NCBI GenBank assembly: GCA_020435995.1
Contig: JAGQYO010000040.1
Location: 1-33,116, forward strand
From: Flavobacteriales bacterium
Lineage (GTDB): Bacteria > Bacteroidota > Bacteroidia > Flavobacteriales_G > Salibacteraceae
Length of the DNA: 33,116 nt
Direction: 5' to 3'
The position numbers were made by a program, and so were the translations under genes. Shown here piece by piece: positions 9,420 through 33,116 of this stretch. The notes below the pieces were generated by a model. That model had not been told where the DNA came from. It saw only the letters and a list, made by a program, of their open reading frames with translations, and did not search any database. Position 1 is the first letter of the stretch. Each line of letters opens with the position of its first letter.

Positions 9420-10181
9420 ATGAAAGTCACATTCCTCGGAACAGGTACATCACAGGGTATTCCAGTAATAGGAAGCAATCATCCTGTGTGCTTGTCCAAA
9501 GATAGCCGTGACAAAAGGTTGCGTAGTTCGGTGCATATAGAAATCGACGGTAAATCGTTTGTGATTGATACAGGACCAGACTTCCGAATGCAAATGCTTA
9601 ATGCCAATATTCAACGGCTCGATGCCGTGGTATTTACACATGAGCACAAGGACCACACGGCCGGATTCGATGACATACGCCCATTCAATTTCAAGCAGAA
9701 TATGGATATGCCTGTCTACGGCACCAAGCGGGTACTCGAAGCACTGAAGCGGGATTATGCTTACATATTTGAAGCGCAAAAATATCCAGGCGTACCTTCA
9801 GCGGAATTACACGAAATTGAAAACAAACCTTTCGAAATTGATGGTGTACTATTTACACCTATTGAAGTAATGCACATGTTTCTTCCCGTGTTCGGATACC
9901 GTATTCAAGATTTTAGCTACATCACTGATGCTAAAACGATTTCTTCGTCGGAAAAAGATAAAGTAAGGGGCTCAAAAGTGCTGGTTTTGAATGCACTTAG
10001 AATAGAAGAACATTACTCACACTTTAACCTACAAGAAGCCCTGGATTTGGTGGCCGAGCTTAAACCCGAAAGGGCCTATTTTACACATATATCGCACTTA
10101 TTGGGATTTCATGAAGAGGTTTCCAAGCAATTGCCTAAAAATGTATTCCTCGCTTATGATGGACTTGAAATTGAAATTTAG
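9420..10181 (+). CDS. MBL-fold metal-dependent hydrolase, PhnP-like
   Basis: A 253-residue metallo-beta-lactamase-fold protein beginning with the typical KVTFLGTGTSQGIPVIG strand-loop of the PhnP / phosphodiesterase subgroup. Metal-binding motifs are THEHKDH (His74, His76, Asp78, His79), His152, YITD with Asp170, and THISH around 222-226. E. coli PhnP cleaves cyclic ribose phosphates; the Bacteroidota members have no proven substrate, and no phosphonate genes are nearby. A free-standing role as a cyclic phosphodiesterase is plausible. The gene begins in the base after the glycosyltransferase stop and overlaps the start of the secreted endonuclease. Confidence 0.85.
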   Translation: MKVTFLGTGTSQGIPVIGSNHPVCLSKDSRDKRLRSSVHIEIDGKSFVIDTGPDFRMQMLNANIQRLDAVVFTHEHKDHTAGFDDIRPFNFKQNMDMPVYGTKRVLEALKRDYAYIFEAQKYPGVPSAELHEIENKPFEIDGVLFTPIEVMHMFLPVFGYRIQDFSYITDAKTISSSEKDKVRGSKVLVLNALRIEEHYSHFNLQEALDLVAELKPERAYFTHISHLLGFHEEVSKQLPKNVFLAYDGLEIEI

Positions 10182-11775
10182 AACTTTTATTGGCCTAGCC
10201 TTTTTAATTTCTATTGGCACTACCTCAAATGCCCAAACTGTAGTTGATTTTGGTGCAGTTAATGAACTTAACCCAAAGATCGAATCTATTAATGTAAATT
10301 CCGTTTTACATTATAGTAAAAAAGGAGATAGCAATTTTAAAGTTACAGTGATTCCCCTAAAGCCATATTCGTTTTTCGAAACATTAGATACGATTGTAAA
10401 ATATCCTTCCGATTCTATAATTGAAGTTAAACTTGGCATCATTCATAACATGCCCCAAAAAGGAATTTGCATTCTGTCAAACGAAAGAGGTTTGGCAGGA
10501 TATTTTAGACTCAGTGGCAGCGGACAATATTCCAACCGTTATTACGACAATACCAGAAACAAAGAAGGCGAGGACCTTAAAACCGCCTTGAAGTCAACAC
10601 TAGCAGTAAATTATAATTCGATGGGTTACAGCAGTGCCAGAATTGAAATGTTTAGCAAAATTGATAATTGGAAGGTGAATGGACGAGGTAGCTCTGTAGA
10701 CAAAATAGAATGTGTGTATACTGGACGAAGCATTACCAATTATCCTTTTAACACAGGTACGCTGGTGAACTCACCTTGGAACTTTAATACAGAACACACT
10801 TACCCACAAGGCCTTTTTAGCTCAAATGAGCCCATGAAATCCGATCTTCATCATTTGTTTCCGACTGACGTAAGCGAAAATGGTAAAAGAGGTAACGATG
10901 CTTTTGGAACTGGCTCGGGTAAATACGAACCGAGAGACGAACAAAAGGGCAGGAGCGCAAGAGCCATGTTGTATTTCGTTACAAGGTACCAAGATTATCA
11001 AGGGTTTTTGGCTGGTCAAGAGACTTTGTTACGAAGCTGGGCTAAGTCATTTCCACCGGATTCTGTTGACGTAAGACGAAATCAAGATATTTATGGTGCG
11101 CAGCTCAATCGAAACCCATACATAGATTATCCTCAATTCTTGGAAAGAATAAGCTCTATTTCGACAACTGCGTCTGTTCAAAAGATTAAAGATTTTGTTG
11201 TTTCACCCTCGCTCAAAACTAGGGTTTCAACTGACACCCTAATCTATTTTCAAGACAGAGAAGAAATGATTTATAACAACGGAACAGAGAATATTTCGGT
11301 TGAAGTTTATCAATGGAGTGAATATATGAGAAAAAAAATCGCGTCGGACACCGCTTTAGAGGCCGATGGAATTCTCATTTTTCGATTTAGTTTTCCAGGG
11401 TTAATGGACGCTGGCATCATAAATTCCAAAGACACGATTGTAATTGTTTCAAATGTATTGGGCAAAGAAGAGTTGAGGTTTGTGTTTGAAGGATTTTATA
11501 ATACAGGCAGTTCAATTCAAGAATTGAATCAAAGCGTTTCATTCAAAATCTTCCCAAATCCAGCACAAACCAGTATTACCATTGGTGGCCAAAGTATGGA
11601 AAGGGTTCGTGCGTCAAAGTATTCCATTTTGGATGTCTCTGGAAAGTTTATAGCTAAAGGGAAAATCGAAAACCAAAGCATTGATGTAGCTCAAATTCCA
11701 GCAGGCTATTACTTGCTCAACATAACCAACGAAAAAGGGGAGATAGGCACAGAAAAACTAATAATTGAAAGATAG
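10156..11775 (+). CDS. Secreted endonuclease I with T9SS sorting domain
   Basis: A protein of about 539 residues. A signal peptide (KLKFRTFIGLAFLISIG, ending near SNAQ) is followed by an extra N-terminal beta-rich domain, then an endonuclease I domain from about residue 125. Its active-site stretch is NTEHTYPQGLF with His214 and SDLHHLFPTD, the EndA-type ββα-metal arrangement. A type IX secretion C-terminal domain begins near KIFPNPAQTSITI and ends in TEKLIIER. It is therefore probably an outer-membrane-exported DNase for nutrient or biofilm DNA. The longest frame begins at 10111, but an ATG at 10156 fits the signal peptide; either overlaps the MBL gene. Confidence 0.88.
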   Translation: MMDLKLKFRTFIGLAFLISIGTTSNAQTVVDFGAVNELNPKIESINVNSVLHYSKKGDSNFKVTVIPLKPYSFFETLDTIVKYPSDSIIEVKLGIIHNMPQKGICILSNERGLAGYFRLSGSGQYSNRYYDNTRNKEGEDLKTALKSTLAVNYNSMGYSSARIEMFSKIDNWKVNGRGSSVDKIECVYTGRSITNYPFNTGTLVNSPWNFNTEHTYPQGLFSSNEPMKSDLHHLFPTDVSENGKRGNDAFGTGSGKYEPRDEQKGRSARAMLYFVTRYQDYQGFLAGQETLLRSWAKSFPPDSVDVRRNQDIYGAQLNRNPYIDYPQFLERISSISTTASVQKIKDFVVSPSLKTRVSTDTLIYFQDREEMIYNNGTENISVEVYQWSEYMRKKIASDTALEADGILIFRFSFPGLMDAGIINSKDTIVIVSNVLGKEELRFVFEGFYNTGSSIQELNQSVSFKIFPNPAQTSITIGGQSMERVRASKYSILDVSGKFIAKGKIENQSIDVAQIPAGYYLLNITNEKGEIGTEKLIIER

Positions 11776-30933: not shown

Positions 30934-31466
30934 ACCCCGAATTTAAGATGAAATATCGAGCCTTGAAGTTCTGAGAAAAAAAGTATGGGGGAGGGGGGGA
31001 TTGAAGCTTTCTTAGAGTTCCTTATTTATGAATCACCGCCATTTGATAAACAACGAAGTAATAAACATAGATTGCTTTAATTGAAATTCTAGAATACTAC
31101 CAAGAATAATAAATTTAGGCTTTTGGCCCATAAAGGACTGGCATTGTGTTAATATAGGATAGAACCATCCGTTTGCTGATAAATGAGTTCGTGAGCTCGC
31201 TGTGTTCGGGTTAGGCCTTCAAGAATCCTGATTCAACGGGAGTTGGGAAGTAGAAGGTTTGCTTTTCGTTTAGTAGCATGTTGATTTAAAATTCTTGACG
31301 CGAGGGCTTCGCTGGTCTAATACAAAACACGGAAAGGCTGAAGAGTATTGAAAGGGTTTTGTGCGATGATATATTAATAAGATTTCGTTTTGCTATTGAT
31401 TATTAAATAAAGTGTCCGTAGATTTGTCCGTGTCCGTAAAAACGTCCGTAGAAACACAAATCACTT
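30934..31466. other. Non-coding join between core genome and the methyltransferase
   Basis: The 533-bp stretch has no convincing gene. It holds a G-rich run (GGGGGAGGGGGGG, 30987-30999), AT-rich sequence, and at its right end the GTCCGT repeat array. On the minus strand, 31115-31279 reads as 54 codons broken by one in-frame TAA, beginning MLLNEKQTFYFPTPVESGFL; it could be a decayed fragment but has no family match I can name. Confidence 0.5.
31413..31450. repeat. Four-copy (T/C)GTCCGT(A/G) direct-repeat array
   Basis: Copies start at 31413, 31425, 31431 and 31443, all on the plus strand, giving spacings of 12, 6 and 12 bp. The array ends 16 bp before the methyltransferase ATG. The fixed phasing on multiples of six suggests binding by a protein rather than chance. 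The arm-type domain encoded directly downstream is an obvious candidate reader. Confidence 0.75.
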
Positions 31467-33116
31467 ATGGCTACTATTAATTTTTATTTAGACAAGGCAG
31501 ATAAAAAAGGCTTTTCACCTATCCACTTACGAATTAATTGCAACGGAGAGCAAGTTAAAATATCTACTGGTGAGAAGGTGAAACCCGCCAATTTTGACAA
31601 AACCAATCATCTAATCAAATCAAAGGACCCAAAACACATTGAGATTAATCATTACCTCGGATACTTGACAGAAAGAGCTGATGACTTATTAAATAACTCT
31701 TACAAAAAAACATTTTCAGTAAAAGAAATTAAAGAAGCACTGAATGAATATGTGAAAGGATACAAGGAAGATCATAGTGTCAACATACTTCGTGAACAAA
31801 TGGAGCTTTACGGAAAGCCTTTTACGTTTATTGATTTGTTCGCAGGTGCTGGAGGTTTTAGTGAAGGGTTCTTACAAGCCGAAGAAAACAATAAGTTCTT
31901 TGACTTTCTGGTTGGTAACGACATTAATGAGAATTGTGAATTAACTCATATTGTTAGGTATAATCACCAGTTAGGTATGGACGCTGAGTTCTTATGCCAA
32001 GACGTTACAGAACCAGATTTCCTTGATAACTTGATGACGAAAATTGGAGGAAAGACTGTGGACGTTGTATGTGGGGGGCCTCCTTGTCAAAGTTTTAGCT
32101 TGGCAGGTAAGCGTCGAAAATTTGATAAGAAGGATGATTTGTTTTCTCATTACCTCGAAGTCATAAAAGTCTTACGACCTAAGTACTTCGTAATGGAAAA
32201 TGTAAAAGGAATCTTGACCAAAGAACGCGGTAAAATCAAAGAGCTCATCCTAAAAGAAATCAACTCCATTGTTGATATTAAGGAGGTTCCTATGCTTACC
32301 ACTTTTATAAAAAGCTTGAAGAAAACTAACCTAGGCGATGAATTCCTATTGGACTGTCTGATTAAAAGAGTTGAAATTGAGCAACATAGTGACGAGGCTG
32401 CCGAAGTAGCAAAAGAGAATTTCATCAAATCAATTGAAACTAAGTTTAGAATTCTCACACCGAAAATTGTAGATTACAAAACAAGTAAGACAGACGAACG
32501 AGTTAGTACTATCAGACACGGCTTTAACCTATTGGTTCGCGACAAACAATGGAATAAGCTTAAGCGAGACATTATTAAAGAGAAGGACTTTTGCAACATT
32601 GACAATGATTATTATGTCGATGGTTTTACAGAATTTTTGGCTCAACTGGATGCTAAACCTATAATTGGTAAAATTGAAGAAGCTTTTGGGCGATTGAAAG
32701 TAGCCAAGGAGTTTCAAAAAGAGTGTGCTGATATATTGAATGCTCTTAAAATTTACACACTCAATTTCGACGATACACTTAAGACGATTGAAAATTTCTG
32801 CGATGAAAAACAACTCAAAAAGTTAAATTCCATTGCTAATGAAATCCGTCTATACAAAATTGAAGCTCCGTTCGTAGCAGATGCATCGAATTATGGAGTC
32901 CCTCAAAAAAGAGAACGAGTACTTTTCATAGGATGTAGAAAAGACCAAAAGTTTATTTCAGAAATTCCAGCAACCGTTTCAGAAGAAGAAAAGGTATCCG
33001 TCTTTGAAGCCATATATGACCTTGATTTTGTGGGTAATAACGATGAAGCTCACAAGTATGAATTAGTTGATATTTCAAGGCAATACAATGGTACAGCCAA
33101 GAAAATGAAAGCTTTG
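31467..33116 (+). CDS. C5-cytosine DNA methyltransferase with recombinase-type arm DNA-binding N-terminus (cut by window edge)
   Basis: An ATG at 31467 opens 550 codons that run off the window. Residues 1-100 (MATINFYLDKADKKGFSPIH, then QVKISTGEKVKPANFD and INHYLGYLTERADDLL) look like the arm-type N-terminal domain of Bacteroidota tyrosine recombinases. From 120 on comes a C5 methyltransferase: motif I IDLFAGAGGFSEGF (Phe125), GNDIN, motif IV GGPPCQSFS with catalytic Cys207, motif VI MENVKG (Glu244), and motif VIII YGVPQKRERVLFIG (480-485). The target-recognition domain and motifs IX-X lie outside. Between motifs VI and VIII are about 235 residues, against about 40 in M.HhaI, so a large insert is present. 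The enzyme would transfer methyl groups from SAM to cytosine. A partner endonuclease, if any, is not visible. Confidence 0.9.
   Translation, partial: MATINFYLDKADKKGFSPIHLRINCNGEQVKISTGEKVKPANFDKTNHLIKSKDPKHIEINHYLGYLTERADDLLNNSYKKTFSVKEIKEALNEYVKGYKEDHSVNILREQMELYGKPFTFIDLFAGAGGFSEGFLQAEENNKFFDFLVGNDINENCELTHIVRYNHQLGMDAEFLCQDVTEPDFLDNLMTKIGGKTVDVVCGGPPCQSFSLAGKRRKFDKKDDLFSHYLEVIKVLRPKYFVMENVKGILTKERGKIKELILKEINSIVDIKEVPMLTTFIKSLKKTNLGDEFLLDCLIKRVEIEQHSDEAAEVAKENFIKSIETKFRILTPKIVDYKTSKTDERVSTIRHGFNLLVRDKQWNKLKRDIIKEKDFCNIDNDYYVDGFTEFLAQLDAKPIIGKIEEAFGRLKVAKEFQKECADILNALKIYTLNFDDTLKTIENFCDEKQLKKLNSIANEIRLYKIEAPFVADASNYGVPQKRERVLFIGCRKDQKFISEIPATVSEEEKVSVFEAIYDLDFVGNNDEAHKYELVDISRQYNGTAKKMKAL

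Follow-up and report, generated by a model that had tools for sequence, protein, structure and literature searches.

Judged from its sequence, the open reading frame at the right end of the window (the whole analysed stretch, 33,116 nucleotides of a Flavobacteriales contig) is a C5 cytosine DNA methyltransferase that carries a second, integrase-type DNA-recognition module. We consider it probable, at roughly 0.7, that this protein, the M component of a type II restriction-modification operon, also regulates transcription of its own gene, its arm domain binding a repeat array upstream of the gene and thereby repressing the operon; the prediction draws on sequence comparison and on analogy with a methyltransferase known to repress its own gene. 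How a restriction-modification operon spares a new host is an old question, to which C proteins and other N-terminal methyltransferase extensions are known answers. In the large, Bacteroidota-wide family described here, a recombinase part appears to handle new-host safety, with a clear predicted site. The relevant features of the window are the following:

31413..31448, + strand: array of four TGTCCG words with starts 12, 6 and 12 bp apart, read directly from the sequence; predicted operator for the arm domain
31419..31426, + strand: TAGATTTG, located between the first two array words and matching TAnnTTTG, the sigma-A −7 box of Bacteroidota
31467..33116, + strand: M gene, encoding the arm-domain C5 cytosine DNA methyltransferase; the initial 550 of ~737 codons, with the 3′ end past the contig end
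31467..31766, + strand: integrase-type arm DNA-binding domain (Pfam match 31491-31697; hhalign; predicted strands and helices)
31821..33116, + strand: C5 methyltransferase core (PF00145; conserved columns; PDB profile matches to C5 methyltransferases)

The M reading frame begins with ATG and is still open after 550 amino acids, where window and contig end together. Residues 9-77 matched PF17293 (Arm-DNA-bind_5) with 35.7 bits against a cut-off of 22.6 (E 1.3e-8; Pfam), and the N-terminal 115 residues alone gave E 3.1e-10. When 28 arm regions of the family were compared with 15 integrase arm regions by profile-profile alignment (hhalign), the two groups were found to be homologous with 99.2% probability (E 3.3e-19, 94 columns), bearing out the initial annotation, which had read the N-terminal ~100 residues as the arm domain of an integrase. 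An AlphaFold2 model of the arm showed three strands followed by helices (pLDDT 83.5); a fold search of the PDB with this 115-residue model returned no significant match, nor did a sequence search with the arm profile among solved arm domains. A full-length model, with a pLDDT of 69 and low values in the C-terminal third, was set aside. PF00145 (DNA_methylase) began at residue 119 (E 2.2e-39), and neither a SAM-like nor a Phage_integrase catalytic domain was found by Pfam after the arm, as had also been noted initially. The core, described at that time as complete-looking, contains motifs I (FAGAGG), IV (GGPPCQS) and VI (ENV), a long helical insertion and motif VIII (QKRER); the target-recognition region is partial in the window copy, and its remainder lies beyond the contig end together with motif X (GNAVPP in relatives). 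Full-length relatives have motifs I, IV (PC), VI (ENV), VIII and X in order, with an altered motif X in L048. The proposed search past the contig end for the rest of the target-recognition domain and for a partner gene was carried out in the remainder of the same assembly, where neither the last 187 residues of the window copy, nor a MvaI/BcnI-family gene, nor the alternative partner ORF described below was found; the restriction endonuclease came to light in relatives. The G+C content of the window M gene is 35.6%, as against 41.2% for positions 1-30933, which fits horizontal acquisition of the gene in the vicinity of gyrA-like and TPR genes.

Relatives were collected by scanning one genome per species, which detected 422 stretches, the best 80 of which were kept. 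In 79 of these 80 loci the fusion is encoded from residue 1 in a frame that reaches a stop codon, the remaining one (L074) being cut by a contig end. The presence of the same fusion from the N-terminus in 79 Bacteroidota loci rules out an assembly artefact, which had been raised as a possibility for the join. The earlier proposal of a methyltransferase with a second DNA-recognition module is supported. The full-length proteins mostly measure 735-741 aa and the arm reading frame is intact in all 79 loci, whose hosts include Flavobacteriia, Cytophagales, Bacteroidales and Chitinophagales, among others. In a sample from the class of the window, a close match was present in 7 of 198 genomes, with a long frame in all seven. 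Protein similarity only loosely matched host taxonomy (the Marivirga copy, L006, is 82% identical to that of Confluentibacter, L007, and the Polaribacter copy, L016, 71-72%), which suggests horizontal spread. Among the 28 arm sequences 13 of ~115 positions were invariant, and in the family members that diverge most, conservation was lower in the arm than in the core. The two close armless relatives available for comparison (L090 and L091, both on viral contigs) are 45-50% identical in the methyltransferase core. No match to the arm profile was obtained in viral contigs, and a search of plasmid and phage records returned distant armless methyltransferases only. In one family member (L048, 8001-10199) the methyltransferase C-terminus diverges from all relatives after about residue 697, the motif X region reads VMNATPP, and a Mrr-type gene lies downstream. 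The open-access papers searched contained no description of the arm-methyltransferase architecture; the fusion is a real, conserved and apparently so far undescribed architecture.

Because a gene for a MvaI/BcnI-family restriction endonuclease follows M in 72 of the 79 loci (tblastn; in a few loci the match is only partial, and the two frames mostly overlap by 4 bp), the arm-domain methyltransferase is, on the basis of gene order, the M gene of a type II restriction-modification operon, in agreement with the link to defence genes that had been suggested initially. In the Confluentibacter locus the M stop codon overlaps by 4 bp with the start of a 392-aa ORF, which matched PF15515 (E 6.5e-73) and R.MvaI (PDB 2oa9; E 2.3e-6). 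In five loci (L008, L009, L077, L078 and L082) the R gene is replaced by a convergent ORF of ~310 aa without any family match (for instance L008, 10211-11158, − strand). The same convergent partner (10062-10679, − strand), together with a Vsr gene, accompanies the armless methyltransferase of L091, and we regard this ORF as a candidate restriction endonuclease from its position. Additional genes were seen between M and R in some loci. Five of them (L004, 2624-4832; L015; L026; L036; L073) contain the Dazbog genes DzbA and DzbB, which scored E 2.6e-95 and E 5.5e-51, respectively, in L004 (PADLOC). Four others contain a gene pair including a GmrSD_N protein (L012, 9342-11022; L033, 10215-12346; L054, 10211-11925; L070, 10208-11876), the pair in L054 being similar to the NsnA and PD-T4-2_A models.

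Sites resembling attC were detected near the operon in 16 loci, mostly flavobacterial (L061, 1-17623; L020, L021, L026, L030, L031, L038, L039, L044, L045, L050, L051, L053, L054, L055 and L064), and wherever both ends could be seen the M-R operon formed a single cassette of an integron-like array. All 54 attC-like sites found in 1.0 Mb were in the orientation of M, with none on the reverse strand and none in shuffled sequence. The bases with which the L061 cassette opens (GTTACCTG) complement the box that follows R (CAGGTAAC), as an integron cassette would be expected to show, and in this locus the lower strand of the attC-like site folds better than shuffled versions (z −2.72). Tyrosine recombinases encoded alongside, within the L061 and L050 stretches, scored 185-200 bits against an integron-integrase cut-off of 265; relatives of these enzymes occur in L055, L051 and L023. 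Integrons are known in Bacteroidota (PMC8618304), but a 2022 survey of complete genomes named only one complete integron in Bacteroidetes proper, that of Salinibacter (PMC9024848). The window was also searched for attC-like sites, and none were found.

Directly upstream of M lies an array of 36 bp, made of four TGTCCG/TGTMCG words with 12-6-12 spacing, the last of which ends 4-18 bp before the ATG. A 36-bp template (TGTCCGTAAATTTGTCCGTGTMCGTAAAAAYGTCCG) matched 77 of 80 copies, including that of the window, with at most five mismatches, and 31 of them with none, while each of about 4000 control stretches taken from these loci had at least 14 mismatches. There were 35 distinct arrays among the 77 copies, and most of the DNA further upstream was not conserved across the family. 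Three loci (L009, L068 and L077) have a single 18-bp unit of two words instead of the four-word array. A generic test for repeats with a period of 10-14 caught only 29 of the 77 arrays because the words are short, and the template test is the more reliable of the two. Analysis of the array as an RNA structure did not reveal a stable fold (z −0.30), and this reading was rejected.

The first spacer of the array reads AAWTTT, which together with the flanking words yields TAnnTTTG, while the second reads AAAAAY. TAnnTTTG is the consensus of the sigma-A −7 box in flavobacteria and other Bacteroidota (PMC9723704); it is found inside the array in 70 of the 77 copies and is partly made of letters of the repeat words themselves. 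A conserved −33 box was sought for the 77 arrays and not found; the −33 element is weak, a TTG at a spacing of 19-20 being present in only 16. If the −7 box is used, the array would cover the core promoter and the transcript start.

The array is retained in loci whose arm is only 34% identical to that of the window (L080 and L082). It is also kept where the convergent ORF replaces R, which indicates that it belongs to M and not to R. Neither an array nor an upstream doublet was found in the armless L090 and L091. When 395 genomes of the phylum were searched with a three-word pattern and 395 of the class with a two-word pattern, those of the array-like matches examined that preceded an intact ORF as expected belonged to this M gene, and the other pattern matches in these ~790 sampled genomes were coding or unrelated chance matches; in the searched samples the array was restricted to arm-bearing genes. 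A lone, interrupted remnant was seen at about 1495-1525 of L180, where an insertion may have broken the gene directly after its start region.

Integrases that share the arm domain often have upstream repeats of their own. A doublet with a period of 10-14 was present within 160 bp upstream of 24 of 39 arm-domain integrases and in 1 of 39 control stretches located at the opposite end of each locus (longest repeat against shuffles, p 0.02); these 39 integrases (from L158-L177 and L208-L227) were among the best-scoring matches and not a random sample, and a rule was used to pick their start codons. The period is typically 11-12, near the 12 of the methyltransferase array. The words vary (TGTTGTACC, TGTTTACC, TGTTTTACC, TGTTTAAAC and others), and TGTCCG words were absent as upstream repeats from all 39 and from the integrase of the window's own genome. 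This pattern fits a model in which arm domains would read a doublet beside their own gene, the word depending on the domain. Since arm-domain integrases often have an analogous upstream doublet, the 5′ module of the methyltransferase gene, made up of repeats and arm domain, may have been taken over from one, and the fusion gene could plausibly have arisen by capturing an integrase 5′ end. It had been suggested that defence genes are swapped behind conserved integrase 5′ ends; a shared repeats-plus-arm 5′ module is indeed seen, but the data point to one capture followed by spread of the family and not to routine swapping. More tentatively, and at somewhat less than even odds, arm domains and upstream doublets could constitute a portable, re-programmable self-regulation module that integrases use at their 5′ ends and of which the methyltransferase captured one whole. 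If so, an integrase part would here be controlling a restriction-modification system.

Several other explanations were weighed against self-regulation. The initial annotation had proposed that the arm steers methylation to mobile-element attachment sites, either to mark self or to block integration. The homology to integrase arms, the short repeats near the genes of arm-domain integrases and the placement of some flavobacterial operon copies within integron-like cassette arrays are all compatible with such a role. However, the conserved TGTCCG words, noted initially as TGTCCGT sites, form one array at the promoter of M itself, no such array being found at the integrases examined or, apart from the L180 remnant, elsewhere in the ~790 sampled genomes, and the methylation already has an ordinary role because most relatives have a restriction endonuclease in the operon; we therefore consider targeting of attachment sites very unlikely. 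The same resemblance to integrases, in both the kind of domain and the layout of the repeats, would also be expected if the array were a recombination arm-site at which a recombinase acting in trans moved the operon, which does appear to move between lineages. Yet the flavobacterial mobile unit ends at the attC-like sites, ~175 bp upstream on one side and directly behind R on the other, and not at the array, and none of the recombinase genes examined had TGTCCG words, so that this possibility is highly improbable.

An alternative that keeps the array in transcription is that an activator acts there, or that a different protein such as a host regulator reads it, the arm then being used for dimerisation or for holding M on DNA. 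Contact between arm and array is itself deduced, and activators can lie near promoters; the co-occurrence of arm and array is no proof of contact, given that both are inherited together. An array overlapping the −7 box and the DNA downstream of it would nevertheless be an unusual position for an activator, and confinement of the array to arm-bearing genes, with its absence from armless relatives, argues against a separate reader; this explanation is unlikely. Finally, the lower conservation of the arm relative to the core among the family's most distant copies might suggest a non-functional leftover of gene fusion, but the invariant arm positions and the frame maintained in all 79 loci make this scarcely credible.

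Self-regulation by M would proceed as follows. The arm domain would bind the four TGTCCG words directly upstream of its own gene, and since the array covers the −7 box and extends almost to the start codon, the bound protein would block RNA polymerase. On entry into a new cell the promoter would be free, and M, as the first gene, would be made at once; its accumulation would then shut the operon, holding both M and the nuclease at a low steady level. Going one step further, incoming unmodified DNA could titrate M off the array and so raise expression. We infer the binding of arm to array, repression by that binding and the physiological role from the layout described above. The domain and its 36-bp site make a testable pair, and integrase arms with their likely cognate repeats could reveal how arm domains read DNA.

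The closest precedent is M.SsoII, which represses its own gene through N-terminal residues 1-55; these contact a 15-bp site in the promoter region (PMC6100179). Like enzymes of that type, the arm-domain protein is a type II C5 methyltransferase that carries an additional DNA-binding domain at its N-terminus and has a conserved site within the promoter of its gene. Whereas M.SsoII combines a 55-residue N-terminal regulator with a 15-bp palindrome (PMC6100179), the arm-domain methyltransferase combines an integrase-type arm with four direct repeats, and its regulation is predicted. With MvaI/BcnI-family type II systems it shares an R protein that likewise belongs to PF15515 and matches R.MvaI; it differs from them in the arm domain, in roughly 190 residues inserted into M between motifs VI and VIII, and in an extra N-terminal part of ~160 residues in R. 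With PF17293 tyrosine recombinases, many of which have a direct-repeat doublet upstream of their own gene, it shares a homologous N-terminal arm domain. By contrast to these enzymes, it has a methyltransferase in place of the recombinase domains, and its repeat word is TGTCCG, usually in four copies, as against TGTTGTACC, TGTTTACC and others in two or three copies at the integrases.
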